A DNA stretch of 64,000 nt from Trebouxia sp. TZW2008 (Eukaryota > Chlorophyta > Trebouxiophyceae > Trebouxiales > Trebouxiaceae), in NCBI GenBank assembly GCA_002118135.1, contig BDIU01000121.1, positions 124,001 through 188,000 on the forward strand, in the 5' to 3' direction. Positions 4,001 to 61,222 of this stretch are shown here, piece by piece (the first letter of the stretch is position 1; each line of letters starts with the position of its first letter). The notes beneath the pieces are model-generated. The model saw only the letters and a list, made by a program, of their open reading frames with translations, did not search any database and had not been told where the DNA came from. The position numbers and the translations under genes are program-made.

Positions 4001-7000
4001 TGTTGCTGTCTGCAGGGTGCTGCTGCTGTACGTGCAGCCAGGGGAAGCATACGAGGGTGTTGTTCTCAACTGGACTCAACCCCAGCTGACAACTCTGCGT
4101 TATGCTGCGCTGGGTCTGCTTCACAGCATGGCTCCATGCTTCCCTCAGGTCAGCCCTTTTCATCATGCCGACCATCATGCAATCACAATCAGCATCACAA
4201 TCGCATTCACCATCACCACCACCACCATCATCATTGTCATCACTCACATGCTGGCCAGTGAGTTTTCCTGATGCTGCTAGATGCTCACTCAAGCATTCAA
4301 ATGCTTTCACACAATACATGGGAAACTCCAGTTTGAAAGCTGGGAAATGCTGTCTTGGGAATACCCTGACACCATCTCTGCGAAGTCCTCCTGCGCTGTG
4401 CTGAAATTGACAAGTGTTCTGTTCCTTCTGCAGGCATATGATGAGTGCGGTGGGCCAGCGCAGATGCTGCAGTTTCTGGCTGGCTGCACAGACTTCAAAC
4501 TGCTAGAGGCAGGCTTGCACCACATGCACAGGTGTGTCAGCATGTGCAGCAACAGCTCAAAACATGGCAACTTTATTTGTGAACATCTGACTTCGTTGCC
4601 TATCACGTGCTCAAGACAACAGGCTGTGAAGGCTGACTTGCACCAATGCACACCTGTGTCAGTATGAGCAGCACAAGCTGATGTCATGACAATGCTTGGA
4701 CAGCTTTGTCACTTGGGCTGTGAACACAAAGTAGGCCCTTAAGCCTGTGCCAGAGTTGCTGTCAACATGAACCTACAGAACCCTTCAAGTTTTGCTGAGG
4801 TTCGCTGAGAGAATAATGTTGTTTCAAATTTGTACCATCCACGCCGTACTTGGCAGTATCAACCATCAAGCACGTGACCTTCGTCTTCTGCGAGGCACCA
4901 ACTTGGCGTTATCTTGTTCTTCTGCAGGGCTTGCAGTGGAAGCGCCCTGCTGTGTAATACTTGGGGGGAGCAGGGCTGCATGGAAATGGCCCTCGCTGTG
5001 GCGGCTGACTCCACCTGGCCTGAGAGAGTCAGGCGCAGTGCACTGCTGCTGATCTCAGTCGCCTGCCGCAACAGCTTGCATGCTGCCCAGCAGTTTCTGC
5101 AACTTGAGGTCTGTTGTGCAAATGCTCTTTTATGCCAGCAAGCTCCATAACTTTTGTCCTAGAGAATTTCCAGTCACAACTTTGCAGAGGTCTGCTGTGG
5201 CGACTGACTCCACCTGGCCTGAGAAGGTCAGGCGCAGTGCACTGCTGCTGATCTCGGTTGCCTGCTGTGACAGCTCCCATGCTGCCCAGCAGTTGCTGCA
5301 GCTTGAGGTGCAACTGTTGCTGTGTTTCAGAGCAATACATGAAATTATGTAACAATACGATTCTCAATGCAGCTTTGCTGAAGGTCATGACAGCTTTAAA
5401 TCAGCAGACCCTGCAGCTTGAGATAGACCCAGCAATTGTTGTCTATTCGGAGCTTTAAGTAGAGAAATGACAGTTGCAGCGCTGCTCTGACCAATGCAGG
5501 GGGGGGAGTCCCTGCATTGTTGATCAAGGGATCAGTGAGATCAAGCAACGCTGCTGCGATGCCATGGTGATGAAGGTCTATGAAGGAGGGAAATGATCTT
5601 GCCTGCCTGCTTTAGACCTTGTTCCTGACCAGCTGTGCATGCAGGATATGACAGTCCTGTGCCTAGAGCTGCCAAAGCTGAAGCTGACGGGCAGTCAAGC
5701 AGCCACGCTGTACATCTCTGCAGTCCCGGCTTCAACACTTTTTGGCATGTAAACATTGTGCCTCAAGTAGGCGTTGCTGGTCTGTTGAAGTACATCCAAA
5801 TATCATGCTGTAGTCCAAATGTGTGCATGCAGGGTGTGACAGGTCTATGCCTGGAGCTGCAAAAGCTGAAGCTGATGGGCAGTGAAGCGGCCATGCTGTA
5901 CAACTTTGCAGTGCTGGCTTCATGACCTTTTGGCATGTGCACAATGATGCAACTTGCCTCAAGCAGGGCTTGTTGGTCTGTACGAAACCATCACATGAAG
6001 AATGTCTCATATGTGCTGTCACTGTGTATGCAGGGAGTGACAGTTCTGTGTCTGGAGCTGCAAAAGCTGAAGCTGATGGGCAGTGAGGCAGCCACACTGT
6101 ATGACTTTGCAGTGCTGGATGCCCTGTGGAGCGGCATTGTACAGAGTTCCAAAGCCATGCAGAGCTTTCTGGCAGCAGATGGCCTTGGGTCACTGCTGGA
6201 TGTACTGGAATGCAAAGCTGTTGCCTTGAAACCTGTGCTGCTGACCATCATTGCTGGTGAGGCAAAGTATTGAACAATCTGAACTTTAATCTGTCTTGAA
6301 GACTGCGCTGCTAATTATCATTGCTGAGGCAGATTGTGCAATATGCAAATGCTGATGCAAATTGTAGTGCAATATGTGCCATGAAAACAGCGTGCAGAGC
6401 TGTTTGACAGCAAATGGCCTTGGATCATTGCTGAATCTGTTGAAGTGTGGAGCTGTTGCCTTGGGACCTGTGCTGCTGACTTTCATAGCTGGTGAGAAAT
6501 TGGCACATACATCTCGATGTGCATGCCATATACAACACACAATGATATGCAATGAACATCATGCTGGGCTGACAGGCTCACTAGGCCAATTTTTTGAAAT
6601 AGTGAGCTAGCTGCAGTGTTGCTGATCAGCAGAATGTACCATGTCCCTTGGTGAATGGTTTACACTGATTGTCAAATCTACTGACAGATGGCAAAGATTC
6701 GAGCTTCAAAGCGCCAGCAATGTGCCAGTGCACAGCAACTTGTATCAATCATGTTGCAGATGTGTTGGGATCAGACTGCGGTAGGCACCTGGATGCTGCG
6801 TCAATCCTGTATGAATGGCAGTCCAGCAAACAGCGGTCTGCCTGTCACATCGTCCTGGACCTCTGGCGACAAGAAGAGACTGGCAAGGGTCTGCAGAGCC
6901 CAGCAGTGAGTCCCAGGTAGGGTTGGGCATAACGCTCCTCAACCATATCTGTCATTGTTTGCTGTGCACAGCTGATCTTGAATCTGACCATGACTTGGAC

Positions 7001-14900: not shown

Positions 14901-17900
14901 GCATGTTTTGAGGGTGTGCAACCGGTCCTTCATGGCTTGCTGCAGGCTCTGGATTACTTGCACTACCACAAGGTGGTGCATGGTGACCTGAAGCCCGAGA
15001 ATGTACTGATGAGTGCCAGGGGAAATGTGACACTCAGCGACTTTGGTTGCAGCAAAGTCATCATCAGCGGCAATGAGTACCTGGAGCGATGTAATGGCAC
15101 TCCAGCGTTCCTTGCCCCTGAGATGATGCGTCCCCATTCCAGATACAGGTTGGTAGTCTTGAACTGCTGAACCTAAGGCTATGCATGGCGTAATCGGTCA
15201 GCATGCTGGTTATAATAATCCATGCACAATGACTTTGGTGGCAACTGATTTTGCAGGAAGGCTGACTGCAAGTTCTCAACCTTGCGGTGTCTCACACCAT
15301 TGTCCAACAAAGTGGTGTGGCTCAGGCTGCATGCGCAAGCAGGTTTTCATGTGACAGAAGCCAAAACTGCTATGTGATGTGCTCTTGTCTGACAGCATGT
15401 CATGAAGCAGTTTGGGCTGCTATCATGTCATCAGCCTGTTCTGGGCGGTGGCATCGCTGAGTCTTCGGTCATCTTAGTATGCATTTGCCGCCACCAAGTC
15501 ACCCCTGCAGGTGTCCATCTCAGCTTCGACTAATGTGCATTGACAATGCAGCAGTGTGCAATGTCTGCATTTGCAGGCTGCCCTCATGCCATGCAGATGC
15601 CCCTTGTGATGCACACATATAGTGTTAGATGGGCTTGTGTTCTTCCAGCCCATTTAGAAGGTGTGGACTCATGCAGGACTCCCTGATGCCCCTTACTCTT
15701 CAACGCAGCACTGTATACAGTTGTTGCTGCATGGTCCTAGGCTGTGCGCAAGTTTGTAAGATTAAGCATGAGCTCAGCATATATGTATTTCATCCACGAC
15801 ATGACCTGGTTCAATGCAGGGGCCGACCGACAGACATATACGCATTGGGGGCCTGCTTGTACACCTTTGTGTTTGGGCGCATCCCCTTCAATGCGCCATC
15901 GGTCTTCAAGCTGTTCCAGGTGGTGCAGCATGAACCCTTGCGCTTCCCTGCACAGCCCCAGGTCTCCCACGATCTCAAGGACCTTCTCCTCAGAATGCTG
16001 GCCAAGGTATGCTGCCCTGACAATTTGTTTGACAGCTTGTTTGATAGCTTGTTTCAAAAGCACGACCTGAAATATGAATAGCGAGCCTTCCCTTCTGCTT
16101 AATGCTCTTCAAGCCATGCTGATCCCTGACAACATCCTCCAGCAGCAAATGCGAATGAGTGTCATGAATCTCTGCGCTGCCATGCCCAGCCCCAGATCTC
16201 TCACAACCTCAAGCATCTCCTCCTCAAAATGCAGGCCAAGGTACGCTCTGAGCTCTGAGCTGTGAGATGCACAGATGGCTACAGTGGTCTCAGCTATACT
16301 CTCTGTTGCATATAGGACCCTGGTTTGCTGACCTTACGCCTTTACATGCTTCAGTCTTACTGCTACTCATTGCAGCGTTTCAGTCGCCACACTGGGTCAA
16401 TACAATGTGTAAGCGCCTTTCGGATTGGCAAGGGTGGCTGAGCAGACTCTCAATCAGCACTTGCTGGTCAGACTCTACTTGGACCACATGTGCCAATCGA
16501 CAAGGCAACTACATTTCTCATTGACCCAGCGTTTCAGTCACACTGGGTCAACACAATGCGTAAGCGCCTTCTGGTTTGGCAAGGGTGGCTGAGCAGACTC
16601 TCAATCAGCACTTGCTGTTCAGATTCTGCTTGGGTCATGTATGCCAATCGCCAAGGCTCTCACATTTTTCATTGACCCAGGAAGCCAGCAATGACAACGG
16701 CTTTGTTGTACATTTGCTTATAGTGCAAATTGCTCCAGGTTTTGCAGGCCATGCAATGGTCTAGCACTGCTGCCTCGCAGCAAGGTGCAGTGTGCTTCAT
16801 CTGGCAATCACTCAGTCAGCAAGATGAGCTTAAGGCATGTGAGTTTTGACTGGTTGCAAGGGACGTACCTGGCATTGTTGCCATGCTGCGCAGCATCAGA
16901 GGTGGATTTTTCGCATATCAGCAGGATTGTAGAGCAAACACCCAATAGCAGGAAGTGCAAGCTTCTGAGCGCAGCACAGACAGGCTGTCAACATGCCTTT
17001 GTGAAGCTGCCTGCTTGCCTTGTGTAACTGCAATCACCTAGTACATTTCTGTCTCCATCACTGTTGCTAAGACCGTTTCCATCATGAGGCCTGTCATTTA
17101 CAACTTGTACTTGCCTTGAGCAGGACCCCAAGGAGCGCATCACGTTGAGTCGCATGATGAAGCACCCGTGGGTGACGCGGCGTGGCAGCTGGCCCTTACG
17201 CAGCGTCAAGGAGATGGTGCGCCAGGGGGACACCCCCGAGCTGCCCCCCGTCCTCCCTGACCTCATGTCCACCCTCAATGTCCTTGATATCCCCAGACAG
17301 GTGAGGCTGCTTTCCGTACTGTGACTGCTGTGCTATGCATGTTGATCTTTCGACTGCTGCTGCTGCTGCTGATGCTCCTGCTGCTGTTTGATGGTGTTGC
17401 CATGGATTTGAGTGGATGCGCCCGTCTCTCCCTGACCTCATGTCCACCCTCAATGTCCTAGATATCCCCAGGCAGGTGCACCAGGTGCAGAATGCTGCAC
17501 CGTGCACAGTGCTCACATGGGGAGGAGGTTGGTGTATCACATCATTGCACAAGAATTACTGTGCATACTGTAGCCGCCGCTGCTGCTTATGCTGCCATTG
17601 TTCATGCTGGTTGCAGTGCTTTTGCTGGTGGCAGCAGATCTGCTGGGTAAATGAGGCGTCTCATGTATCAATCACCCTATTTTGAGCTGCTGTCATGCTG
17701 TTGTTCAGTTGTATGGTCCACATATCATGCTCATGAATGGCAGCAGAGGTCTGTGTCTTGTTGGCTGCAGGATCACTTGACGGGCGTGTTGCAGCCAGGA
17801 CTGCCAGAGAAGGTGTTCCAGGACGGGGAGCTGCTGATTAGGCAAGGGGAGCAGGGTACCTTCATGATGTACATACTAGAGGGCCAAGTGGAGGTCACTG

Positions 17901-33939: not shown

Positions 33940-33980
33940 CAATGTGCGTCACCATTACTTGCCAATGGTGACGCACATTG
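33940..33980. other. Perfect 17-bp stem hairpin with 7-nt loop
   Basis: CAATGTGCGTCACCATT is followed by ACTTGCC and then the exact reverse complement. Part of the stem (CACATTGGTGACGC) appears again near 34008. Such a structure could come from a short inverted duplication or act in RNA. Confidence 0.65.
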
Positions 33981-44500: not shown

Positions 44501-47500
44501 GCAGCACAAAGAATATGCAGATTTAGCTCTGCCTTTACTTGGCCTTGCCACTGCCAGATTTCATGTCTAAAACATTGTACTGCACTGAAATTTGTGCAAG
44601 ACTGTTGGTGTATTTGACAAGCTTTTGCTTGCGAAGACTCACTCAGAGCAGCAACAGGCTGTCAGCATGAGGCCTGACATGCTTCACCATCGCAAAACGT
44701 TCCTGGGCTTCTCAAAGCACTGCGTATGGGCTGAGCTGTTGCACAGGTTTGCTGGCAGTGCATACAAGGTGTGCAATATGTTGGTGGTACCACACTGTGT
44801 CTAAAGCTCCACATATTCATCACTGTCTTCCTTCTTTGTCTCAAGTGATGTATCTGACTAGAGCCATGGCCCAGGTTTGCTGGCAACGCATACAAGGAGT
44901 GGAGTGGGTGGGTGCTCCCGCACTATGTCTAATGCTCCAGATACGCATCACAGTCTTCCTGCTCTGTTTCAAGTGATGTCTGTGACCAGAGCTGTGGCAC
45001 AGGGGTTGCCAGCAGTGCATACAAGCAGTCCCTGACACCAGCAAAATGCTGCCACACTGTGTCTGAAACTTCCATACTCCCCACATTAGAAAAGTCTTCC
45101 CTTGCTATCAACTGCTGCACCTGACTTGTGGCGCAGGTTTGCTGGCGGTGCATACAAGGAGTGGAGTGGGTGGGTGGTTGTTACACAAGACGCTCAGTGC
45201 ATGCTGGCAGTGCCTCAATTGGACTCCGACCAAGGTTGGTCATTACTAGCAGTATGCAAGCCTTGCTTGAAGTCTCTGCCTCAATGGCGCCCTTGTGCGC
45301 ATCAGCAGCAAGAGTTGTATGCAGCCCACTGCTCTCCTGTACTGCCTGCAGCTCAAGTCTGTTGCAGTGCAGTGTAGCAATTGTTATGACAATGTCACCA
45401 ATGATCAGCAGGCAGCCACAACTTCTGATGTCTTGTAGCATTGCTGTTGCAGATGTTGGGAGCTGTGTGTTGGTGCATATGAGCTTCACCTGTGACAGGA
45501 CACCTTTCAGGCGCATGCTGCGTGCTCTGCATGCTGTGACCAAGCACCTACACACAATGTGGATTTCATCAACAGTCAATAGGCGGACTTCCTGATGTCT
45601 TGTAGCATTGATGTTGCAGATTTTGGGAGCCATGGGTTGGTTCATGTGCGCTTCACCTTTGACAGGACACCCTTCAGGCGCATGTTGCATACTCTGCATG
45701 CTGTGGCCATGCACCCACACACCATATGGATGTAGTCAACGTTCCCCAGGCACAGTCTCGGATATCTTGCGGTTGCAGATGTTGGGAGCCGTGGGCTGGT
45801 CCACGTACGCTTCACTTTTGACAGGACGCCCTTCAGGCGCATGCTGCGTGCTTTGTATGCTGTGGCTACGCACCCACGCACAATGCAGCTGCTGCCACCA
45901 CAACCTGTCAGCACCACCTTGAAAGGTGATGGCTTGTCTAGTCCCTGACTTGCTGCCTTATATCCATTGCAACCCATACCAACCCCAGCTCAACAAGGCT
46001 GGCCTGGCCCGCACTGCGCCGTGATGTGCTGTGCACTATCGTGCTGTACTGTTCTCATCATTGCCTGCCCAAGAGATCAACGTCAATCTCTGTCAGCGAG
46101 CTGCATTCAAAATGCTGGCATTTGCAGCACACATTTCTGCTTTGCTGACAATGACTGAGCGCACTCATTTCTGCTTTGCCTCTTCGTGTCCTGCTCCAAT
46201 TTGTCTGCCTCTCACGCTTCAAATGGTGCTGCCTGTACATTGTGACCCTGTGCTACCCTTGTCTCCCTACCATGTCACGACTGCATGGGCACTTATCTCA
46301 CTGTCACATCATGACTTGCAGGTGGAGGGGCAGGGGCAGGGCCAGAGGGCAGCAGCCCTGGCGCTAAAGCTGGCCTGCCCAGTGATGGCCTGTTCAAAGC
46401 CGCCCTCACAGCTCAAGCTGCACAGGTCTGCAAGCAATTCCTGTTGTGATGATGTACTGTGGTCCTTGTGGTCCTGCATCTCAGGAAAGTACAGTCCTAA
46501 GTCACAGTCTGTACATGCTGTGGACTGCAGCTTTTGATGAATATCAATTAAGGAAGCCTGATACGTGTTGTTGAGACAGCATAGCCCATTGTGGCTGGCC
46601 ACCAGCTGCACCTGTGCTGCTGTTCAAGCAGCCTTATGCCGAGTGGTTCATGCAACTGTGAAGGGCACCAAGACTGCACAACTGCCAAGCCAGCAAAAGC
46701 TCAACAGGAAAGCCAGATTGCTGGAGGAGCTGGCAGCACAGAAGCTGAACACTCAGCAGCGCCATATGGTGGCAATCTGCTCTTGGCTGAGTAGCTTTGC
46801 ACAAGTGCTCAATGTGACTGTGAAGGGCAACAAGGCTGAACAGCTGCAAAGTCAGTACGCACCAAAGTGAGACTCCAGTTCAAGCATTCATCAACACTCA
46901 TCATCAACTTGGAACTTCTGTCTGTGCAATTCTTCCTCAAGTGAGCAATCAGCGATGTGACTATGAAGGGCACCAAGACTGCACAGCTGCCAAGCAAGCA
47001 GAAGTTGAACAGGAAAGCTGGATTCCTGGAGGAGTTGGGAGCACAGAAGCTGAACAGTCAGCAGCGAGAAGCAGTGGCGTCTGTGCTGGTGGGCGCAGGG
47101 GGGGGGTTGCATCCCCTCACCCTGTTTGGGCCCCCTGGCACTGGCAAGACAGTCACTCTTGTTGAGAGCGCTCTCCAGGTGTGCTGCAAAGTCATTATGC
47201 ATTCACACAAATTGCAGCAGTCGCTATTCAAGCTAAACAAGCTGTGGGGGGGGGACGGGGGGGGGGGAAGGCGCCTGTGCTGGTGGGCGCAGGTGGCCCC
47301 CCCCCCTCACCCTCTATGGGCCTTCGGGCAAGACAGCCATCCTGGTTGAGTGCGCTCTTCAGGTGAGCTGCAAGGTCATCATGCACTCTCAAGTTCAACA
47401 TGGCTAGTCAAGCGTTATAAGAGGGGTACAGGGGGGTTGGGGAGTTGCCCTGACTCGATTTGGGCCCCTGGCACCGGCAAGACAATCACCCTTGTTGAGA

Positions 47501-49111
47501 GCGACCTTTAGGTGTGCCTTGACAAAACAAGCACTCCAGTTGTACCACACCGACGGACACTGTTGGCACTTGCATGCAGTTGGAATTGGCCTGTACAGCA
47601 CTTGGCTTGCAACTGGCCAGTAGACACAAGACTACACGAGTACAGCACAAAATTGTTGAGGCCGCTCTAGATGAGTCAGGACATAATCCCACCACGCATT
47701 CAAAGTGGACATTCCAGTACACAATCACGATCGGAGTACATTTGAGCAAGCACCAAACTGGTAGTGGAGAAATGACTGAATCCTCGTTGGTGAGCAGCAA
47801 AGCGGCAGAAGTCATTTGGTCAAAATGTTTTGCAGGTGTATAGGACAGTGAAAGGGGCTCGGCTGCTGATGTGTGCCCCTCAGAACTACAGTGCAGATCT
47901 GCTGTATCGTGCCCTGGCCGCTGCGGGCATCACCACTGACTACATGGTCAGGCTGGTTGACCCTCGCATCCCACCTGCACAGGTGGGAATTTGCTCTCCA
48001 GTTGCTGTTTCTGGCAGTAAGTTTGGCAAGAGGCAAAAATTTCCCTCCAACTGCTCAAGTTGCACTTGCTGCTGCTGGCAACAGCACTCATGAACAAGAG
48101 ACTTTTGCACAGAGCATGCATGTCACTATTGACTCCATGGTCAGGCTGGTTGACCCTCGCACCCCTCCAGCACAGGTCACATACCTCTCTCAGTTTGCAG
48201 CCCATGGCAATGGCTTTTGCATTCGCACACTCCTCACTTGTTCAGATGTGTGATTGAGGATTGTTGAGGCACCTGATGCCACAAGTGCCGATAGAACCAA
48301 GAGGTTGTCTAGCTTCTCCATTTCAGTACATCTTTAGCTCATTGTGTGAGTTTGCACGCCCAGACTGTGTGATGCTGTAAGCACCATCACCCACCTTCTG
48401 CGCAATCTAGCTCCTGTGCCAATCAGTCAAGGCCATGGTGTAACACGGTTCTGCATGCAAGGCACAACTTCGCATGCATGAAATATCTTGTGGCTGCAGT
48501 ACCCAGCCATCCCTTTTCACAATACATTTTGGACCAAATACACGTGACAAATTCATTGGACCTAGTGCTTCCACATCGCTTGCTTTGTTCATGGTCAGAT
48601 GTAGATGTCAACAAGTGTTGCAGCAACACTGTTCAACTTACCTTCATGGGTGAACTTGAAAGCTCTTTTGCTCAATCAGCAGCTTGCAAACAGGTGCAAG
48701 AGGACGTCAGGCCCAAGTGCCTGTTTGATGATGACACCAACTACTTTGGACTGCCTAGCCCGGAGCAGCTGGCCAGCTACTATGTGGTGGTCTGCACTTG
48801 TGGCGCTGCCGGTGATCACTGTCTTTGATCCTTATCCTGCTGTTGACTGTCACTGAGCCGTGTGCTGTTGGTCACTGTCACTGACTCTTGTTGTGCTGCT
48901 GCTGCTGCTGCTGTTGCTAGCTTGCGCTTGTGCACATGTGGCAATGCTGTTGAGCACTGTTGTTGAGGCTAGTGCTGTTGCTGCTGCTGCTGCTCCCGGT
49001 GATCACTGTCTCTACATCATGTGCTGTTGTTGTTGCTGCAGCTGCTGTTTCTGCCGATGAGCACCGTTTCTGACTCTTGTGCTGTTGCTGTTGCTGCAAT
49101 CGTTGCTGCAA

Positions 49112-49155
<44 letters not shown>

Positions 49156-49365
49156 GCCGCCGGTGATCACTGTTTCTGCATCTTGTGCTGTTGGTGTTGC
49201 TGCAACTGTTGCTGCTGCTGGTGATCACTGTCTCTATATTTTGTGCTGTTGATGTTGCTGCAACTGCTGCTGCTGCTTTTCTGCTGGTGAGCATTGTCAC
49301 TGACTCTTGTGCTGTTGCTGTTGCGCACCAGCTCTGAGTCACTGCTGTTGCCCACTTCCACTGAG

Positions 49366-49406
<41 letters not shown>

Positions 49407-52400
49407 AACATTGCAGGATTAGACTCAGCACCAGGTTCAATGACTGCAAGCACCAGCACAAGACCTTGGTCTAGCGAGTCTTGTACTGGGACTCACAGTC
49501 ACTGGGTGCGGTGCTGCTGCTGCAGCTGTTGCTATTGCTGCTGCTGCTGCTGCTGCTCCTGCTCCTGCTCCTGCGTAGCATGCTACGATAGCAGCACGTC
49601 GTACCAAAACCTGGCTGACTGGTATATCCTTGGTCAGATGCATATGGGTGCTGCACAGGCATCCTGCGGGAGGGTGCGTATGGCAGCTACTATGCTGAGG
49701 CCTGCAAGGAGCAAGTGAAGCAGAAGAGCACTGGTCTAAGGCCCTTGGAGTTCTCTCATGTCATGATTGATGAAGCAGGACAGGTCAGCTCTGCTTCTCC
49801 TTGCATGCTATACGCGTGTTGCATTGCAGTCAGTCTGCCACTTGTTTCTCCGTCCGTCCATGATTGCTCACTCGCAAACTAGTCACTCAACTGCTCATTG
49901 CCCGCCTGTCAACTCACTCACCCTGCAACCCAGCTACCTTGTTGCCAGTGAGATGTCAAGATCATCCATGAGGCTGGCATATTTTGATTCCTGACTCATA
50001 CACCTACTTGTGCCATGTGCCTGATATCTGGAGCAGGCTCCAAATGACGCAGTTGTCAATAACATGCCACAAGCTTGTGATAAACAGGTTGACATGGCAT
50101 ATTCAGCAACAGCAGCAATTTTTTGGCAAGCATGCTGAAGTGATCCCATAGACTGGATTCAGCTGCGCAGTCTGTATGTGAGCTGGTACAGTCAGGCTAG
50201 ACTGTAATCAACAGACCAAGATTGCTGTTGAGCAGACAAACTGCACCTGAAGGCAAAAGCTGCTTTGCCCTGTGTACATGTTGTTGCACCCTTCGTAACA
50301 AAGTGTGTGTCCACGCAATACATAATCTGCCTGTGGCCATACGGTTGACCAGGCATAGCTGAGTCCAAACTGATGTTGTTGAGCATAGACAACTGAGAAC
50401 AGGGATTTCAGCTCAAGGTCTGCCCATAGGAAAACCAGGAACATTTCTCTACCTTCAAGAAAGGAAAGACCTCTTGACAAATGCTGTTGCCTTTCTGCAG
50501 CTGTGGTGTGCATGGTGCAGTGATATGGCACTGTCTTCAACAAGCCCGAATTTGCAATGCTGCTTATGATACTTGTGTCAGTGTCAAGACTGCTCGTGAC
50601 AGATGAAGATGTGTCATGATGAAGTGTGCTTGTGTTTGCAGGCACTGGGGCCTGAGGCTTTGATCCCGCTGACGCTGCTTGCCCCCAAGGATAGCTGCGC
50701 CATGCTGTGTGGAGACCCAAGGTCAGCCTGTGAATCTCCTGCATAATTGCTGCACATTTCCCTTTGTGTTGCTATGCTGCATCCCTCTTTTTGCCTTGCT
50801 GCCCATCTTCCAAACTTGCTGGTTTTGAGATTTTCCAGCTGTCTTTCCTGCCGCCCACAGCTCCTTTCCAAGCTCTTCTTTTGGACTGCACAGGTATATC
50901 TTTTCTGGTCGCTCATTTTGCCAAAGTGGCTGAGACTGGTTGCTTTTTTGATATACACTGCTTCAACTGCAGGCAGTTGGGACCAGTGCTGCACTCCACA
51001 GCAGCTGAAGCTCATGGCCTCAAGACATCTCTGCTGGAGGCCTTTGTGCAGTACCATGGGACTCAGCAAGCACTGTACACAGAACAAGGCCTAGCACCCT
51101 GCCTAGGTATTCCTAAGCATATTTTGCTCAACCTTAGCATAGTCAGATCCTCGTGATCACTGTTGTGGCTCCACTTTTATGTTGAATTTCGATACTCTGT
51201 GCAATTTGTGCTGAATGCATGATCACTGCTGAAGTCTGAGTCTGCTAAGACATCTCTGCTGGAAGCCTGTGCGCAGTTGCACAAAACTCAGCTCCAGCTG
51301 TACACAGATCAAGGCCTAGCACCTTGCCTGGGTACTCCTTAGCATAGGTCCTGCAAGCCCAGCACATTCAGAAGTTGATGGTCATGTTGCATTCTGATAC
51401 TCTGTGCAGTTTGTGCTGGATGCGCGTTCACTCCTGAAGTCTGAGTCTGATAAGGCATCTTTGCTAGAGGTCTTTGTGCAGTATCATGGGATTCAGCTCC
51501 AGCTGTACACAGATCAAGGCCTGGCGCCCTGCCTAGGTAATTGGACCTTTGCAATGTCAATCTGACTTTGCATTGTAGACACTGCTGGTTTGAAGCCAAC
51601 CCTGCATTGCTGAGGTGACTTTGTGCTGCACACACGCTGGTGCAATCCAGTGATGCGAATTTGCAAGTGCTAAAGTGTAAAGTTCAACAACCCAGTCAGG
51701 CCTGCAGTGATGTGTCCCTGGTCAAAAGTCAGGCTTACAGTGCAATTGTGATATGATCTTTCTTCTGCAGGCATATTTGGCTGGCTGGACTTTGCCCTGC
51801 AGGCATTGCTGATAGGACTTCTCTTTTGCGCTGTAGGCATCCTGGTGCACAACTATTGCAGCCACCAGCGTCTGCTGGAGCTGCCCAGCAGGCTGTGTTC
51901 AGGCAATTGTGCTGGCATACTTGGCTGATTGCAGGCATTGCTGATGTTGAGTTGCACTGCAGCTGATGCGGCTTGGCAGCGCAGGCTTGCTGGTGTACTG
52001 CATTGCTATGATTGGCATTGCAGACATTGCTGATATGACTTCTTTTTGCGCTGCAGGCATGCTGGTCCACAACTATCGCAGCCACCAGCGCCTGCTAAAG
52101 CTGCCCAGCCGCCTCTGCTATGACGACCAGCTGCTGGCATATTTGGCTGGCAGGGCTCTGCCCTGCAGGCAGCTAATGTCACTATTATTCTGTTGTTCAT
52201 GTTACATTGCACCGCAGCCAATGCGCCTCAGCCCTCCAGGCATGTTGGTGCAACCTTGATGCAAAGGGCATTGCTGACGTGAGTTTGCCCCTGCAGGCAT
52301 GTTGGTGCACAACTACAGAAGCCATCAGCGTCTGCTGGAGCTGCCCAGCCGCCTCTACTACGACAACCAGCTGCTGGCATCAGCTGACCCCCAACTGGTC

Positions 52401-55400
52401 ACTGCACCTGCCTGGAGCGAGCTGCACAGGCGCAGGTCAGTATATTGCTGCTGCATGATCACCTTGTACACAATCCTTGGCACTTCCTTGTCTGGCACAC
52501 CAGTTGTGACACTGCAGTTACAGCGGTATGTGCTGTGCATCATTACATCACCCTGTACCAAGCTGCACAGGCACAGATCGAAGGCCTGCTGCGATGTCAC
52601 TATGTTGCAGACTTGCCACCCCTTGGCATGCCAGTTGCACTCCTGTTGATTTATGCAGTAACAACAAGATGTGCAAATCTCATTTTCGGACATTTGGCGG
52701 GAGAAGACCGTGCCGGCACAGGTCAGCCTCTCTGTCACCATCTTCTGCATTACTTTTCAGTCATCTGCATTGCTACGTACATGATGTGTGCTGAGTGATG
52801 GTCTGCAAGGCAAACGCAATCTGCAACGGTACAGTGCCACCAAGTAGCTGACTGTCAAGTGATGCACTTCCAAAGCCCGCTGCTTCAGGGGCATGTGTTT
52901 ATTCACTGCCGGCAACCCTTGAGGTCTGAGACTGTCAGAACGGGTTTAGGTCAAGGTTGAGGTGTCATCTGCAGGGAGGAAGAGGAGCAATGGGATGAAG
53001 CAGAAGAGCAACATGAGCAGAATGGCGGGTCTGATGCACAGCAAGCTGAAGCTGATGCCCCTGCTGGTCCTGATGCTAGTGGTGACAGCCCAGATGACAA
53101 CCAACTGCCAGTCAACACACTCTTTTATGGTGTGCGTGGTCAACAGGTAAATCAACGCCTTGCTACCACTATATCTGACTGTGCTTTCACAAATGACAAT
53201 GGACTGCCATTGAGCACCCTTTTCTTGGGGTGCAGGGTGTGCAGGCATATTATGGCTACACTTGTTGTAAAAAGTCTTTTGCTGTACATTGCTGACCTGA
53301 TACCCATGTAAGTGCCGCCCGACTTGGTATGCTCCAGTGCACCAATAAGATACAAACCCGTCTGTAGATGAGGGATGGTGATGCACCCAGCTACTACAGC
53401 CCAGTGGAGGCGTCTGCACTGGTCAAGCTGCTCCAGGGTCTATTGGTCTGGAAGCATATTCTCTCTCAGATTTTGGATGTTTTGCATTTCCTGCTTTCCC
53501 ACTTGCTGGTCACTTAGATGCCTGTGATTTGTGACCCAATGCCTTGATGTGCAGATGAGGGACGGTGATGCACCCAGCTATTACAACCCAGTGGAGGCAT
53601 CAGCACTGGTCAAGCTGCTCCAGGGTCTGTTGGCCTACAAGACCCCAGGCGGGCAGGCAGTGACAGTGCAAGACATTGGGGTCATTGCCACCTACAGAAA
53701 TCAGGTCAGACGCTACTGCATATCTCCCTTGCATTTGCCTCATCATTACTTCTATGCAATTACTTGGCTAACTTTGGTGTGCACATCTGCATTTGCCTCT
53801 GTAGTGCAGTGATCAGGTGTTGGTCTATTCATTGATTCCAAACGTGTGCGAGACAGGCTCAGCAGGCCCAGCTAGGTATATACTGGAGCAATCAACCATC
53901 TGCAACTGGTTTGGTCCTGTGCTATCCTGAACCATTTGCATTGAGCATGGAGGGGAGGTTGGCTTTGCCTCTGCAGCTACCATCGTGTTTGTCTCTGCAA
54001 TTGCCTTTCAGCACAGTCCAGGGCCAATAGCGCGTGAAATGAGACAGAACTTCAAGGACCTTGCCGCAAACAGCATTAGTCAGCCCCAAAACAGCAGCTT
54101 CAGGTTTGACCAGACTGCAGTTACACTAAAGGTTATATGACATGCAGGTGAAGAAGCTGAGACTACTGCTGCGAGCGCGTGAGCTGGGCGCTGTGCGAGT
54201 GGGTACTGTAGACGACTTCCAGGGGCAAGAAGCGCGCATCATCTTCATCTCCACAGTTTTGTCCAGGTACTCCAAAGCGTGGGGCCATCCACCTGTCCTT
54301 TAAGCATGCTGTTTCTTCTGTTTGTGCCTTTCATGCTTGTGTCCCTCATGTTTGTGCCCTCATGTTTGTGCCTTTATATTTGTGCAACTCATGTCTTCCA
54401 CCTCAAGGAACCAATGCATGTTTCTGAGCATACCGTGAACAGTGATGCTTTGCCAACATGGAGATAGGCAAGCATTGTATGTGTATTGGGCCAGGCTCTG
54501 TCTTACTGAGGAGTTGAAGTCCTGTGCAGGCCATCCAGAGAGACAAATGGCATGTCAAAGGGTGTTGCTGGCATGGCGCAAAGTGCTGCAGCTGATCCTG
54601 CAGTAGGCTTCTTCAGAAATCCCAACCGCTTTAATGTGGCTATCACCCGGGCTCAAGCCCTCATGGTAGTCCTAGGGCATCCCTTGGTCCTCATGCAGGT
54701 ACAGCGTTTGTGTGTTTGGTTCTTGGCCTTTACTTGTTTTGCATCTAGTCACATGTGCCATGAAAATAAATGGTTCATTGCTGCCCTTGATGTGATGTGA
54801 CTTGGCACTGATGCACTAAGCTCATAAATCTTTGCCATGTCTGCAAAGCAAAGTCTCATCAGCCAAGTACGGTTGTAGAGGAAAGTTCTGATTGGAGGTG
54901 CAAAATCCGGTCTACTTTGCATTTCTGTCATGGACTTCCCACTGCAGACAAGGCTGGCTGATCAGACTATTCCCAGCAGGCGTTGCTGATGTGACTTGGG
55001 GCTACATTGCCTAGGCTGACGTGACCTTGCCATTTCTGCAAGGCAAAGTACCACCACTCAGTATGTCTGCAGTGGAAAGTTCATGCTGGAGGTTCAGAAT
55101 CAGGTCTATAGGCGTCAGCAGAGTTGCCTTCGGTGATTATTTGAACATAATAGTAGGTTCTATTTATGTCTGCATGCGATGGTACTGGCTCAAGCGTTAT
55201 TCCATTTGTGTGCTGCATCTCTCTGTCAGGTACAATGGCTTGCTCATGTGCTTCCGTCTGAGTATCATCTCCCCCTTGCTGCACGCCTTTTCGTTTTGGA
55301 GTTTCAGCACCGCAGTGAAACCAATTGTCCTGACATCTGTTTCATTCTGATCTGCGTCGCATCGACAGCGTCAGTCAAGCTCAGCAACTACTGTGCACAG

Positions 55401-57142
55401 GCCAGACAGGCTGCCCCCTATGCAGCTTGCTCGAGCAGTAAGTAACTTGACAATGCAACCTGAGCAGACACAATGGCAATGGTTGCAAAGACAGCCCGTA
55501 CTCCAACGTCTTTGTGGTGGAGGGAGGGGGGAAAGGGGGAGAGGAGGGGGTTACAGTGAGGCCCTACAGGGGCCCCTACCTGGATGTTGAAGGCTGCCCG
55601 TCATGCACATGCATTGAGTCACATGAATGAAAGAAAACTCTTCTGCGGGATCCCAACTGGAGTGAGCTGGTGAAGTACTGTGCGGCAAGGGGGGCTTATA
55701 GGGGGGCCGGCTCAGAGTCCCTGGGCTTCCGGGTCAGCATGCAAGTGCATGGTATCAAATTATTGAAGCAAGTGGTGTCTGATGCAGGATCTCAACTTCA
55801 TTTGGGATGTGACCAGCATGCAGGTGCATTGAACGACATGAACAAACAAACCCGGTATTTGGCTGCAGGACCCCAACTGGAGTGAGCTGGTGAAATACTG
55901 TGCGGCCCGGGGGGCCTACAGGGGGGCTGGCTCAGACTCTCTGGGTCTACTGGTCAGGAACCAACCAGCAGAGGACAGCTATCTGCCTGGGGAGGATCAA
56001 GGTACATGCCTGCAAAAGACGTCATCTTTGCATATGACCACTATGTTTTGCTGTCTTATCTATGCCAATTTTGTAGCACCCATCAAAAAGCCAGCCAGCA
56101 GAGGACAGCTAGCTGCCTGGGGAGGATCCACTTATTGTAGTTATCATGTTATGCCACTCTTTACATGTTTGCTGTCATTCAGCCACATACGAGCCATACA
56201 GGAGCCAGCCAGCTGAGGCCAGCTACCTGCCTGGGAAGGCTCAAGGGAAGATTCTGCGTTCGCATTTTCATGCAACATTGTTCTTTGCTCTTTTGTTGTG
56301 AGTCTCGTGACTTGAGCCATTGGCTGACCATCAAGGGACCAGTCAGCAGAGGACAGCTACCTGCCCAGGGAGCATCAAGCTTCATGCCTGTATATTTGAT
56401 TCTATACATGATTATCTGTGTGCATTTGTATGTCCCTTGTGGGTTCAGCTCAGACTAAGCCACCAAAGAGGCAACCAGTAGAAGACAGCCATCCGATGAG
56501 GGTAAATGCTTGACAGCCCTATGAGCACAGGTTGTTGTCACAGTGATTGGTGCTGACTTGACTGCAGCAGCTGGTGAGTCTTGCATTCTAGGTACCAACA
56601 TCAGTGTTGTATACAGTAAACTCTCTTTGCGACAACTGCTTTGGTTACATTGAATTGTCCTTACTGAGAGAGACCACTGCAGTCAAATGCCAGTGATTGG
56701 TAACTAATGGCGTTGTCGTGACATCAAGATTGTCCTTACATTGAGTGTCCTTACAAACAGAGTTTACTGTATCAATATTACATTGGCCAGCATGAAAGGG
56801 CTGGTGGTGCTCGTTACGGCACTTGTGTAAAGCCCCATGCAACTTGCTGCAGAAGATCATGGGGAGGACGACAGTCTGAAGATCCAGCAGGCTGTGAGTC
56901 ACATTGCAATGTGTTGCAGGGTGCTTGCATGAGTACTGCAACCCTGCCATCTAATGCACATGAAACCTGTTGCAGAGGAAACAGGGGAGGAGGACAGTTT
57001 GGAAATCCAGCAGGCTGTGAGTCACATTGCAGAGGCAGCCTTGCTGGGTGTTGGTGACGCCAGCAAGATGTATCCTGAAACGCTTGAGGAGATGTATGAG
57101 TCCTACAGCGCCAATGAAATGGAGTTCCGTGTAATTCTGTAG
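35576..57142 (+). CDS. MOV10/SDE3-type RNA helicase (Upf1-like superfamily 1)
   Basis: ATP-dependent RNA helicase related to plant SDE3 and animal MOV10, which act in RNA silencing and retroelement control. Exons supported by phase and family: 35576-35818, 36616-36651, 36836-37120, 38681-39411, 39701-39957, 40010-40043, 41192-41299, 42138-42257, 42803-42919, 43450-43510, 44288-44346, 45137-45234, 45779-45925, 46322-46425 (less sure), about 46946-47178, 47836-47982, 48694-48811, 49659-49783, 50642-50721, 50973-51106, 52297-52435, 52975-53146, 53555-53704, 54148-54266, 54530-54698, 55869-55952, a small tail exon near 56460-56510, 56976-57142. Motifs in order: [23 protein letters not shown] (Walker A), [18 protein letters not shown] (motif II), GDPRQLGPVL (III), [13 protein letters not shown] (IV), [11 protein letters not shown] (V), [18 protein letters not shown] (VI). 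The N-terminal 500 or so residues are Gln/Gly/Pro-rich with an immunoglobulin-like segment. Confidence 0.85.
36061..36373. mobile_element. Foldback element with long terminal inverted repeats
   Basis: The left end GCGCTAACTAGTGCATTTGC and the right end GCAAATGCACTAGCTAGCGC are near-perfect inverted repeats. Complementarity continues inward for about 130 bp per arm (CATTCAATGCT, GTCATCTAAGG, CAAGCGCTGCTGCA, GCATGCC). The whole 313-bp unit can fold into one imperfect hairpin. It carries no open frame, so it is a non-autonomous foldback or MITE-like insertion in the first helicase intron. Confidence 0.75.
37201..37287 (+). repeat. Decayed copy of the 3' edge of helicase exon 36836-37120
   Basis: The copy repeats the GGTAGAGGAATG...GGCTTTGAGAGGGTCCA region and ends CACAAG|GTCAGC, against CATAAG|GTTAGC in the exon. 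It has stops in the exon frame. Confidence 0.8.
37268..37312. other. Perfect 20-bp stem inverted repeat at a duplicated donor
   Basis: ACAATGCATATCACAAGGTC, then AGCAG, then the exact reverse complement. The left arm is the end of the exon copy at 37201-37287 plus its donor. The last bases of the copied exon have therefore been copied again in inverted orientation. Confidence 0.75.
37847..38027 (+). repeat. Lys/Gln-rich exon-like stretch in helicase intron
   Basis: An open frame after the acceptor CTTCAG encodes an Ala/Ser then Lys/Gln-rich segment ([18 protein letters not shown]) and ends in TGA at 38025. The flanking exons (ending 37120, starting 38681) already join in phase 0, so this is optional. 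It may be an alternative exon that truncates the protein or a decayed exon. Part of it (GGTGTTGCTGCAGCTTCTG) is echoed near 37719-37738, and it has an inverted partner at 38030-38125. Confidence 0.4.
38030..38125 (-). repeat. Inverted copy of the Lys/Gln-rich exon-like stretch
   Basis: Read on the minus strand, this DNA encodes [19 protein letters not shown], which parallels the plus-strand [19 protein letters not shown] at 37920-37990. The two copies face each other and form a long imperfect inverted repeat. Stops are absent on the minus strand here, and the frame runs on into the reverse-transcriptase-like fragment. Confidence 0.7.
38126..38339 (-). mobile_element. Reverse-transcriptase fragment of a DIRS/Ty3-like retroelement
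   Basis: The minus-strand frame contains [20 protein letters not shown] followed by [15 protein letters not shown]. This matches the reverse-transcriptase core pattern D/H-x-KSGYHH-(I/V)-x-(I/M)H.DS.KY.(G/A)..F....Y.FT seen in DIRS and Ty3/gypsy elements. Only about 70 residues remain, with no catalytic YxDD motif, so it is a fossil. Confidence 0.6.
38505..38605 (+). repeat. Decayed copy of the 5' edge of helicase exon 38681-39411
   Basis: The copy starts with TGCAG|GATCTCAGCAGACTGTC as in the exon and keeps DLSRLSQ.YAG before frameshifting. It keeps the acceptor and is about 180 bp upstream of the intact exon. Confidence 0.85.
40560..41191 (+). repeat. Tandem array of about 146-bp units bearing an acceptor-like end
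   Basis: The core GCAGCAAGGCAG recurs at 40695, 40832, 40978 and 41124 (spacing 137, 146, 146), with a weaker unit at 40580. Each later unit holds GCAGATCAGC followed by AAATGCTCAGTGT, which is the acceptor and first bases of the helicase exon starting at 41192. The array therefore looks like serial duplication of that exon's 3' splice region. Confidence 0.85.
41300..41520 (+). repeat. Two decayed copies of helicase exon 41192-41299
   Basis: The stretch at 41308-41400 (AAAGCCTTTTGTTACAGAC) and a better copy at 41412-41510 (TTTGTCCCAGACCATCTC ... TGCCAGAGGCCCCTAG) repeat the exon body downstream. Both lack the intact donor TG|GTGAGC and carry substitutions. Confidence 0.8.
41920..42035 (+). 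repeat. Decayed copy of the 5' edge of helicase exon 42138-42257
   Basis: The copy has the acceptor CAAGCTTGCAG and GCAAAGCTCAGTCTCATC against GCAAAGCTCAGTGTCACC in the exon. CCTGAGGGGTGGTC is shared. It degrades after about 90 bp and lies about 208 bp upstream. Confidence 0.85.
43979..44054. repeat. Dispersed repeat, copy 1 (CAGGCTCAGCAGGCCCA family)
   Basis: The stretch shares CAGGCTCAGCAGGCCCA, TAGGTATGTAC and GCAATCAACTGTCTCC with copies at 53841 and 63041. All three lie in introns and in the same orientation. There are no clear terminal repeats. Confidence 0.75.
44745..45045 (+). repeat. Three decayed copies of the 5' edge of helicase exon 45137-45234
   Basis: Copies of acceptor plus RFAG.AYKE start at 44747, 44875 and 45003 (spacing 128 and 128; the intact exon is 134 further on). 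Intron sequence upstream of the acceptor (CATCAC..TCTTCC) is repeated in each unit, so the duplicated unit crosses the splice site. Confidence 0.88.
45447..45755 (+). repeat. Two copies of helicase exon 45779-45925
   Basis: Copies start at 45453 and 45620 after GTTGCAG acceptors and repeat the (S/R)FT(C/F)DRTPFRRML block. This block matches the conserved MOV10/SDE3 segment before the helicase core. The intact third copy alone continues to a good donor (AAAG|GTGATG). Confidence 0.85.
46655..46866 (+). repeat. Two partial upstream copies of the Walker A exon start
   Basis: The stretch at 46659-46780 repeats [19 protein letters not shown]...EELAAQKLN and a shorter piece near 46810-46860 repeats VKGNKAEQL. 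Neither reaches the Walker A motif. Because these copies are close to the real exon, the exact start of the Walker A exon remains uncertain. Confidence 0.75.
47230..47514 (+). repeat. Two decayed downstream copies of the Walker A exon end, with long G and C runs
   Basis: The first copy (about 47245-47362) keeps GTGGGCGCAGG and TTGAGTGCGCTCTTCAG|GTGAGC. The second (47430-47512) keeps [13 protein letters not shown] as a partial Walker A. Homopolymer runs (G9, G11, C11) show slippage in the segment that the functional exon encodes as GAGGG. Confidence 0.8.
48118..48182 (+). repeat. Copy of the 3' edge of helicase exon 47836-47982 with donor
   Basis: The copy repeats the [13 protein letters not shown] block and a donor-like CAG|GTCACA, about 195 bp downstream of the true donor. 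Confidence 0.85.
48885..49570. repeat. CTG-repeat array interleaved with copies of the exon 48694-48811 donor
   Basis: Pure or nearly pure CTG runs lie at about 49110-49152, 49364-49403 and 49517-49560. Between them about five units of 60-90 bp carry GGTGATCACTGTCTC or close variants (about 48993, 49060, 49160, 49226, 49287), which is the donor junction CCG|GTGATCACTGTC of the exon ending at 48811. Each unit continues with TGTGCTGTTGNTGTTGCTGC. A CAG-coded open frame on the minus strand is only low complexity. Confidence 0.85.
51240..51540 (+). repeat. Two copies of the 3' edge of helicase exon 50973-51106 with donor
   Basis: Copies at 51246-51330 and 51455-51537 repeat KTSLLEA and [13 protein letters not shown]. 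The copied donors read CTGG|GTACTC and CTAG|GTAATT. Frames are open for most of the length. Confidence 0.85.
51770..52165 (+). repeat. Copies of the 5' edge of helicase exon 52297-52435 (motif IV)
   Basis: Acceptor plus G(I/M)LVHNY.SHQRLL appears at 51836 and 52058. Associated flanks (GGCATTGCTGATATGACTTCT) recur and include bare acceptor-side pieces near 51770 and 51930. The copy at 52058 stays open for about 35 codons but has no donor at the matching place. Confidence 0.85.
53195..53245 (+). repeat. Decayed copy of the 3' edge of helicase exon 52975-53146
   Basis: GACAATGGACTGCCATTGAG...CTTTTCTTGGGGTGCAGG resembles the exon end encoding [15 protein letters not shown]. The frame is degenerate. 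Confidence 0.55.
53366..53455 (+). repeat. Open copy of the 5' edge of helicase exon 53555-53704
   Basis: After the acceptor TCTGTAG the copy encodes [19 protein letters not shown] without a stop and reaches TTG|GTCTGG at codon 28. It is the best preserved copy in the helicase gene. Confidence 0.85.
53841..53955. repeat. Dispersed repeat, copy 2
   Basis: This copy shares CAGGCTCAGCAGGCCCAGCT, GGAGCAATCAACCATCTGCA, GGTCCTGTGCT and TTGAGCATGG with copy 3 at 63041-63150. Confidence 0.75.
55488..55600 (+). other. G-rich coding-like stretch in a helicase intron
   Basis: One frame reads [17 protein letters not shown] and then [15 protein letters not shown] without a stop across a run of G tracts. 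It has codon-like structure but no clear splice sites, and no place in the helicase alignment was found. It could be an unplaced exon or a quadruplex-prone low-complexity segment. Confidence 0.25.
55645..55735 (+). repeat. Copy of helicase exon 55869-55952 with a broken acceptor
   Basis: The copy encodes [19 protein letters not shown] intact and ends CGG|GTCAGC. The expected CTGCAG acceptor reads CTGCGG, so splicing here should be lost. A very close second copy 220 bp on is the likely functional exon. Confidence 0.85.
55955..56510 (+). repeat. Five tandem copies of a short [14 protein letters not shown] exon
   Basis: Copies of CCAGCAGAGGACAGCTAYCTGCC occur near 55968, 56094, 56210, 56341 and 56483, spaced about 115-140 bp. 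They diverge in frame and ends. The last (QPVEDSHPM) seems best placed to join the terminal exon, but this could not be proved by phase. Confidence 0.75.
56614..56769. mobile_element. 156-bp MITE with TA target duplication (Tc1/mariner-pogo type ends)
   Basis: Perfect 11-bp terminal inverted repeats CAGTAAACTCT / AGAGTTTACTG are flanked on both sides by TA. Internal sequence has repeated TTGTCCTTAC motifs and no open frame. TA target sites and CAG-starting ends are typical of Tc1/mariner/pogo non-autonomous elements. It lies in a 3' intron of the helicase gene. Confidence 0.8.
56845..56920 (+). repeat. Decayed copy of the 5' edge of the helicase terminal exon
   Basis: GCTGCAG then [19 protein letters not shown] is a copy of the start of the exon at 56976. 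It runs into CATTGCAATGTG and loses similarity after 22 codons. Confidence 0.85.
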
Positions 57143-59696: not shown

Positions 59697-61222
59697 ATGA
59701 GAGCTAGCGCGTCCACTATGCTGTTGGTGTTGACCGGGATGGCATGTTGTTTAGGATATGCTGCAGCGGCCGGGCAGGTAAGCGAAATGTTCTTCACCTA
59801 CATCATTTGCATGTGAATCTGATGTTATCAACTTTTGGCTTTCACGCTAGCTTGGACCAAGAAGCAGCTGCCAAACGCGCGGCGATAGCACTGCTTCGAC
59901 GCCATGCCGGCGCCCGAGCGGGCCAAGATAACAGCGACTTGGAATAGATACTGAAAAGTGCAATGCCTTTGTTGCAGTTCCCCACTGTAGGTCCTGCACC
60001 TGATATTGTGGGCGTGTGGGTCGACGACGTCGATATCGGAGCGATCTCCACCGATGGCAGCTTCATCTACCAGAGCGCAATCATCGGGGAAAGCCCCTAC
60101 ATCGGTCGCTACTTGAGCCACCAGTACGTTCATCAGCTTGTGTGCATGGACTGAACGCACTCGACTTTTGCGTGCTTGCTTGACGCCTGTGGCACAGCTG
60201 ACATGCCACAGAAGCCAAATTGCAGACCTTCTGAAGTGACTGGTGCTATTGCAGGTGTAACCCAGATGGCTCATGGTACACTGACTACATTCAATACTTC
60301 TTTGATGACAATGGCAATGTCAACGCAACCAGTCCCGGATGTGAGTCCACACCTTGTGCAGTACCGCCTGGCATCTGTGCACAAGCCCATCGCATGTGCC
60401 CTGATACATGCATGCATATGTCACTGCAGCTGGCTGATGCCAATTTGACATCCCCACCTTCTGCAAGATGCTTCGCTCCCCCTGTCATTAACAAGCATGT
60501 GTCATCAAGGGACTGAACAATGCCTGCATCTGTTGCAGGTGGAACTGGATACTTTGTTGATGGAGTGGTGAGTGGTGCTACATGCTGCCTGAGCTATGTC
60601 ACATCCCATGCTGCTGTCATGCCACCTGCTGTTTTCTGAGCTATGCCACAATCAATGCTGCTGCAATGCCACTTCCATCTCACCTCCCTTGGTCTGAGCT
60701 ACATCACAGTCAATGCTGCTGTCAAGCCGCTTCACTTTTCACTTTGCCCTAACTGCGCAATACACGTCAATGTTTGCCATCACCACCTTCGTGCTTCTTC
60801 TCACCTCATAGCCAGTTGTCTGCTCATTATACATGAGTGTTTGCCATCACTGCGCCATGTCTCGTCTCACTCCATCCCTACCTGTGCAGAACATGTCAGT
60901 CTTACAAGCTCTCAAACACTCCTCACTCAGTGTTCATTGTCTGTGCATACACATCAGTCTTTGCAATCGCTGAAACACTTTTCAACTCACCCTCCACTTG
61001 TCCATGCAGTACACATCCGTCTTTGCCATCACTGAGACAGAAGCCTGCCCAATCAGTCCTACCGCTCAGACCGAGAGTGTGTTCCACACCATGGTGCCCG
61101 GCAGCACTTTGGGAGCCCTACTGAATGGGACATTCTGTGCCCAAACACGCCGAGGTGTGCTTGAGCACCCTATCTTGCCATATGACACACCAGCCTCAAA
61201 CGCAGCATTGGGTACCCCCTGA
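59697..61222 (+). CDS. Secreted protein of unknown family, 184 aa
   Basis: Exons 59697-59777, 59978-60123, 60255-60340, 60539-60567 and 61010-61222 join in phase (555 nt, 184 aa). Residues 1-27 form a clear signal peptide with core MLLVLTGMACCLGYAAAA. Exon 1 ends just after it. The mature part has an acidic GVWVDDVDIGAISTDGSF start and looks beta-rich and aromatic (YIQYFFDDNG). It carries two N-glycosylation sequons (NATS and NGTF) and four cysteines. A GxW near the mature N-terminus followed by beta-strand-like stretches recalls lipocalin-type barrels, but this is only suggestive. No family was recognised. The intron before the last exon holds several decayed copies of that exon's start. It is probably exported or vacuolar. 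Confidence 0.75.
60590..61005 (+). repeat. Decayed copies of the 5' edge of exon 61010-61222
   Basis: Versions of TACACATCCGTCTTTGCCAT occur near 60761, 60829, 60889 and 60949, about 60 bp apart, before the real exon at 61010. A second tandem series of about 50-bp units (GAGCTAYRTCACA..CAATGCTGCTG) fills 60590-60730. Confidence 0.75.

Follow-up and report, generated by a model that had tools for sequence, protein, structure and literature searches.

Decayed copies of neighbouring exon edges in Trebouxia introns suggest intron growth by tandem duplication across splice junctions

In a 64,000-nucleotide stretch of the genome of the green alga Trebouxia sp. TZW2008 (contig BDIU01000121.1, here C117:124001-188000; hereafter the window), introns of CFAP69, of a protein kinase gene and of a MOV10-like helicase gene carry decayed, directly repeated copies of the edge of the exon next to them. 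We believe, with a probability of about 0.72, that these copies result from frequent tandem duplication inside genes, in which only events that left the mRNA unchanged survived and the superfluous copy subsequently decayed. The window belongs to a genome of 68.5 Mb in 527 contigs and has a GC content of 50%, which is compatible with the values tabulated for six Trebouxia genomes in PMC11523091.

The main sample of 292 kb comprised the window, twenty 10-kb stretches around kinase matches on other contigs and eight small kinase loci, while a second set of five unanchored stretches was kept out of gene-finder training. Exon and intron calls rest on the models of a small gene finder trained on the sample itself, which converged on clear donor (MAG/GTRNG) and acceptor (TGCAG/G) motifs. 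As a guide independent of these models, the true exons of three genes were mapped by tblastn with the proteins P0001, P0241, P0242 and P0121.

Self-comparison of the window (score of at least 50, spacing below 4 kb) gave 61 direct local pairs against 5 inverted ones, four of the latter being self-palindromes, and two block-shuffled windows gave neither direct nor inverted pairs even at a score of at least 40; the decayed exon-edge copies announced by the original prediction are thus real. The 292-kb sample, at the same score, contains 188 direct and 8 inverted pairs, of which only one is not a self-palindrome. The direct pairs are spaced mostly 100-260 bp apart, rather than the 60-200 bp first proposed, with larger spacings partly being multiples and none of the 188 pairs at 800 bp or more. 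Such uniform orientation and local confinement are as expected of local tandem duplication. The phenomenon extends beyond the window, as direct pairs are present in 15 of the 20 kinase-anchored 10-kb stretches, with outer-edge pairs (defined below) in 12, and four unanchored genic stretches yielded 49 direct pairs and 1 inverted pair. Repeat density varies strongly by gene, from no direct pair in the stretches L015, L018, L021, L024 and L025 to at least ten in six of the twenty.

Sorted against the predicted exons, 88 of the 188 direct pairs have one exon edge, present in just one of the two copies; in 36 both copies include junctions, 41 are purely noncoding, 18 lie in an exon interior, 4 contain a whole exon and 1 is of another kind. 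In 81 of the 88 single-edge pairs the intact exon is outermost, whereas rotating the annotation 200 times as a null gave means of about 30 outer and 22 inner arrangements; in the window alone the outer geometry holds for 32 of 33 pairs. As the original prediction had described, acceptor-edge copies lie mostly upstream of their exon and donor-edge copies mostly downstream, and all 23 extra partial matches found under protein guidance (11 acceptor-edge, 12 donor-edge; E below 0.5, four of them weak at 0.2-0.4) are situated in the facing intron.

Aligning each exon edge to the intron that it faces (score of at least 36; 729 splice junctions) revealed a copy for 31 of 365 donors and 32 of 364 acceptors, far above the chance level set by random introns (0 of 1095 and 0 of 1092 matches). 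The intron on the exon's other side matched in 6 of 316 and 4 of 316 cases and the reverse complement in 1 and 1. About 8% of the tested junctions (57/729) have a detectable copy, and in the unanchored stretches 15 of 70 do, as compared to 6 of 62 for the other side, 0 of 210 for random introns and 0 for the reverse complement. Among the matches of exons of at least 80 bp (389 exons) to an adjacent intron, 47 of 57 extend to the facing junction, where random placement would put 7 (at most 14 in 2000 trials). Since a tandem event that keeps the mRNA intact must include the facing junction, this proportion fits such a filter. The far junction is included in just 3 of the 57 copies, so that duplication of a whole exon with both splice sites is not the rule. 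Copy-pasting of exon pieces into introns was also considered as the main mode and was rejected, because interior copies are few and most copies reach the facing junction.

The CFAP69 gene illustrates the arrangement on both sides of an exon (all on the + strand):

4928..5108, + strand: CFAP69 exon; a copy of its final 114 bp lies at about 5194-5307 (self-comparison, protein match)
5194..5307, + strand: donor-edge copy in a CFAP69 intron, 89-90% identity, offset 199 (self-comparison, protein match)
5633..5725, + strand: acceptor-edge copy 1 of exon 6034-6256 (self-comparison, gene model, protein match)
5827..5916, + strand: acceptor-edge copy 2 of exon 6034-6256, with the intron flank also repeated (protein match)
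6034..6256, + strand: CFAP69 exon flanked by copies on both sides (gene model, protein match)
6389..6496, + strand: donor-edge copy of exon 6034-6256, offset 235 (self-comparison, protein match)

The CFAP69 orthologues P0241 and P0242 contain the duplicated edge once. The stretch searched is 74% identical to the Trebouxia C0004 protein and 68% identical to that of C0009; all 11 matches of a genome search with CFAP69 lie on the window's own contig, and neither CFAP69 nor the kinase gene has a second copy in its own genome.

The kinase gene (window 12357-20230), which encodes a kinase domain fused to a cyclic-nucleotide-binding domain and for which two-domain relatives are listed from many green algae, holds four copies:

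15820..16006, + strand: kinase exon, confirmed by P0001
16163..16247, + strand: donor-edge copy, absent from P0001
17124..17300, + strand: kinase exon, confirmed by P0001
17421..17478, + strand: donor-edge copy, 95-96% identity (protein match)
18087..18164, + strand: donor-edge copy of exon 17771-17940 (gene model, protein match)
19253..19360, + strand: acceptor-edge copy of exon 19422-19634 with an internal stop codon (protein match)

Once joined, the kinase exons are identical to P0001 throughout its residues 133-696, and 92% of residues agree with a Trebouxia sp. C0006 protein. Because P0001 is encoded on a contig of 2819 nt whereas its exons span 6873 bp of genomic DNA, we infer that it stems from a spliced transcript, either of this strain or of one nearly identical to it. 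It skips all four copies.

In their divergence the copies resemble neutral relics. Across the 57 junction copies (4124 aligned exon bases), mismatches at codon positions 1, 2 and 3 number 193, 163 and 304, and of the 59 gaps 56 disrupt the reading frame, a pattern which fits a copy decaying freely at about 0.13 per site together with mainly synonymous changes in the exon. An old duplication with later loss of function was considered for the third-position excess and set aside, as the exon branch alone would account for it. GT or AG is kept in 44 of the 57 copies, about the neutral expectation at 13% decay, and in 28 the intron beyond the splice site is matched above the 95% null. It is therefore very improbable that the copies are functional duplicated exons that supply alternative or mutually exclusive edges in some transcripts. 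The preserved GT or AG dinucleotides and the fact that the gene finder calls several copies exons would agree with such a role, but the retention is about that of neutral decay, the frame-breaking gaps and stops and the rarity of copies reaching the far junction (3/57) contradict it, and the edge occurs a single time in P0001 as well as in the CFAP69 orthologues.

The identity of the direct pairs, mostly 70-90% with a 95th percentile of 90% in the 292-kb sample, also bears on the possibility, raised at the outset, of mis-joined haplotypes or collapsed repeats. Nothing speaks positively for such an assembly artefact, although the scarcity of near-identical copies could reflect a collapse of young tandem ones. 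The divergence of the pairs, the match of the tested kinase intron only to itself and the confinement of the CFAP69 matches (11/11) to the window's contig make it exceedingly unlikely.

Where exon and orthologue differ, the copies side with their own exon rather than with the orthologue by 16:1 for C0009, 19:2 for C0004, 6:0 for C0006 and 37:4 for P0121 (sums over copies, one of which scores 0:1), with 10, 6, 3 and 12 sites, respectively, matching neither. From these residues most copies seem to post-date the splits from those lineages, unless conversion acted.

Further copies of exon edges lie in the helicase gene:

44733..45029, + strand: array with a 128-bp period, copies of the edge of the exon near 45132-45224 (self-comparison, protein match)
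45473..45726, + strand: two acceptor-edge copies of the exon near 45790-45933 (protein match)
46652..46774, + strand: acceptor-edge copy of exon 46969-47178 (protein match)
46969..47178, + strand: helicase (MOV10-like) exon with copies on both sides (protein match)
47279..47508, + strand: two donor-edge copies of exon 46969-47178 (E 0.21 for the second, a weak match)
48122..48178, + strand: donor-edge copy of exon 47836-47982 (protein match)
51247..51538, + strand: two donor-edge copies of exon 50973-51106 (gene model, protein match)
51812..52139, + strand: two acceptor-edge copies of exon 52297-52435 (protein match)
53363..53454, + strand: acceptor-edge copy of exon 53555-53704, 91% identity (protein match)
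55640..55744, + strand: acceptor-edge copy of exon 55869-56001 (gene model, protein match)
56086..56390, + strand: three donor-edge copies of exon 55869-56001 (near 56091, 56199 and 56334), two of which the protein match picks up, weakly
56836..56908, + strand: acceptor-edge copy of exon 56976-57130 (gene model)

Gene models alone place further copies in an Sfi1-like gene and in a gene for a secreted protein:

23238..23500, - strand: copies of a predicted exon edge, Sfi1-like gene
29461..29782, - strand: array with a 117-bp period at a predicted acceptor, Sfi1-like gene
60882..60977, + strand: weak acceptor-edge repeat of predicted exon 61010-61154 with a 59-bp offset, secreted-protein gene

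Thus, of the five genes named in the original prediction, CFAP69, the kinase and the helicase are borne out by protein matches, and the other two are predicted by gene models. Six of the eleven positions that it singled out (5638, 19262, 44745, 52058, 53366 and 60949) lie inside repeat pairs and the remaining five (6383, 16145, 17402, 48118 and 51240) start 5-19 bp before one; the edge type is as described at all eleven, 60949 being the weakest (76% identity, 59-bp spacing). Edge copies were miscalled exons by the gene finder at window positions 5188-5307, 5645-5748, 46580-46771, 51771-51902, 52057-52149 and 53368-53508. A CTG-rich low-complexity stretch in the helicase gene region (48979-49574) disturbs gene models and repeat counts.

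How would such copies arise? We suggest that genic segments of about 100-200 bp were often tandemly duplicated in this lineage. A duplication across one splice junction would create two junctions, and use of the outer donor or acceptor would leave the mRNA unchanged, so that a tolerated event adds one unit of exon edge plus intron to the intron and the inner copy then decays at the neutral rate. Events within exons, or events that break an exon, would be removed by selection. What brings the duplications about at the molecular level would be a guess: replication slippage or template switching on the scale of nucleosomes or Okazaki fragments, or the repair of staggered nicks. We infer that tandem duplication was the primary event in every case and that intron length rose over time; the tandem nature is directly apparent for a minority of copies and would extend to the remainder.

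The original prediction, that introns grow by tandem duplication across splice sites, holds insofar as the duplications include the junction and leave an intact outer exon and a decayed copy, but the splice site itself need not be their target. Simulated random duplication followed by the intact-mRNA filter and decay, with pairs that contain a real exon diverging more slowly, gave ratios of junction to intron-only events of 1.1, 1.6, 2.6, 5.8 and 4.6 under five settings, and these span the observed ratio of 2.5 (56 distinct junctions against 22 noncoding-only clusters). No targeting of splice sites is therefore needed, since slowly changing exons keep old events visible.

Regarding the size of the unit, the smallest spacing in 74 of 98 clusters is 100-200 bp, with 10 below and 14 above this range, four of the latter exceeding 240 bp. 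When detectability is corrected for under one age setting, most units measure 100-200 bp and their number falls off steeply beyond 240 bp, even though larger units are more readily detected. Nucleosomes and Okazaki fragments are of this scale, but a causal link to either would be a guess.

Several observations weigh against simple tandem duplication. Seven of the 88 single-edge pairs have the intact exon innermost, and 10 of the 57 exon copies end before the facing junction (4 by 7-20 bp, 6 by more than 20 bp), although at least two of these six are due to gene-model errors according to protein mapping. Only 2 of the 57 copies are at least 95% identical, which is below the expectation for a steady process; possible reasons are a slowing of the process, rapid loss of identical tandem units or their collapse in the assembly. 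Similarity is lost within 20 bp on the intron side of the splice site in 41 of the 57 junction copies and in 16 of the 22 best-preserved ones (identity of at least 0.88), so that the original claim that flanking intron sequence is repeated too applies, beyond 20 bp, to 16 of the 57. An unanchored comparison of the flanks is bimodal, with a mean z of 12 for 16 long flanks and of 0.56 for 40 short ones. Finally, the spacers between copy and exon match the expected intron (p<0.05) in only 8 of 29 cases under strict and 5 of 29 under lenient scoring, and the two strongest matches are arrays. The 118-bp spacer before the kinase copy 17421..17478 resembles the expected intron only weakly and in CTG-rich sequence (p 0.007-0.028).

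With pair-specific rates, a first simulation yielded 5 short flanks in 57 (range 2-9) at equal rates, 17 if introns change at 1.5 times the rate and 33 (25-40) at twice the rate, as compared to the 41 seen. Broader simulations that allowed for detection bias came closer, but bridged the difference solely with old ages and frequent long indels; the simulated fraction over all copies is then 0.66-0.82 against the 0.72 observed, but fewer flanks run long than are seen. For the best-preserved copies, plain tandem duplication at equal rates produced fractions of 0.06, 0.23 and 0.34, all well below the observed 16/22, and a value of 0.64 required both frequent long indels and the absence of young events. 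Three explanations offer themselves: a higher turnover of introns than of the exon-derived sequence lying within them, conversion that shields the exon part, or a copying process that ends at junctions.

The last of these options would be a junction-directed process, with nucleosomes on exons or nascent RNA as possible guides, that places an exon edge of about 40-110 bp with the splice-site core some 100-150 bp away, with unrelated filler between. It would account directly for homology ending within 20 bp of the splice site in 41/57 and 16/22 copies, for the bimodal flank ends and for the 30 spacers of 41-217 bp, most of which lack clear homology. However, several arrays are plainly tandem with the repeated intron included, faster intron turnover reproduces much of the flank pattern, and the placement of copies mostly in the facing intron is nothing that a paste mechanism requires; we consider this process rather unlikely. 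As to the origin of the filler, only one of the 30 spacers matches several other sampled loci, as a mobile family would, and three have single short matches. A 217-bp spacer, in the L016 intron by exon 7708-7874, is a dispersed repeat with short matches at window positions 53824, 63043 and 43957 and in L024 and L028.

Conversion, on the other hand, would have followed a tandem duplication and kept the exon part of the copy alike to the exon while the intron parts drifted. Two decaying copies should differ more from each other than from the exon, yet at junctions with two or more copies the identity of their exon parts is 0.83 with the true exon (42 comparisons) and 0.82 among the copies themselves (30 comparisons), one junction being counted twice in this analysis, and own-lineage residues in the copies are likewise predicted by conversion. 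The frame-breaking gaps (56/59) and the mismatches at all codon positions, in contrast, are those of free decay, and conversion works poorly on tracts of 40-110 bp that are 15% diverged. This makes a prominent role of conversion quite unlikely.

Recognisable copies occupy 18,164 of 178,384 predicted intron bases (10%), as well as 10,148 of 92,473 in exons and 134 of 21,182 in a small intergenic sample; the original description of introns as filled with copies was thus overstated. Introns with copies have a median length of 584 bp (n=53) as opposed to 303 bp for those without (n=352), although longer introns also ease detection, and with a median copy offset of 174 bp against that 584-bp median, intron length does not approximate the duplication period, as it would if an intron had arisen between the two copies. 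Under a mild age setting the counts convert to some 150 events in the 292-kb sample (56/0.63 at junctions plus 22/0.35 confined to introns), which at 150 bp each amount to about 13% of the intron DNA, while older settings imply saturation.

Two other kinds of repeat were encountered. One of the unanchored stretches, L033:1-10000 (G000:C17:20001-30000), departs from the pattern with 137 direct and 118 inverted repeats at all distances and no predicted exon; no tRNA was found in it, and it is possibly part of an organellar or repeat-rich contig. The window itself contains imperfect long palindromes at 36057-36377 (329 alignment columns) and 37918-38098 (181 columns) with 75-76% identity, which are possibly hairpin elements.

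Related phenomena are known. Tandem exon duplication and mutually exclusive exons also give exon-derived copies beside the source exon; unlike these, the Trebouxia copies mostly represent one edge, are decaying and are absent from the transcript-like protein that was checked. For eukaryotic genomes, Messer and Arndt in 2007 and Thomas in 2004 have reportedly described short tandem duplications of local range and short paired duplications. The repeats found here are likewise direct, local and small, but mostly of 100-200 bp, chiefly at exon edges and of fixed geometry. Retrocopies derived from mRNA would lack splice signals and intron bases, whereas 44 of the 57 copies here keep GT or AG and 28 match the intron beyond.

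New introns are documented to arise by tandem genomic duplication (Rogers 1989, Hellsten 2011 and Gao and Lynch 2009, as described in PMC3443670 and PMC4974935). As in that route, a tandem duplication within a gene leaves splicing to pick among duplicated signals and the mRNA can stay unchanged; there, however, a new intron arises between the copies, whereas in Trebouxia an existing intron is lengthened, with the copy buried inside it, and many genes are affected. Introners, which PMC9860276 describes as found mainly in fast-evolving lineages such as green algae, similarly contribute to introns genome-wide, but the copies described here derive from the adjacent exon, and no shared intron family of this type appeared in the part tested (one kinase intron, which had no genome-wide match besides itself, and the 30 spacers against the sampled loci). 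Among the literature matches listed (titles and abstract openings, with most subscription papers outside), we found no account of the elongation of existing introns by junction-spanning copies on this scale.

How introns lengthen without transposons is poorly known. In these genes the exon serves as a built-in slow clock, by which the rate, unit size and age of intron growth become measurable within one genome. Because a gene finder can take the copies for exons, false exons may have entered the annotations of genomes of this type. What the pattern predicts is a simple filter, in that duplications would be tolerated only where splicing hides them.

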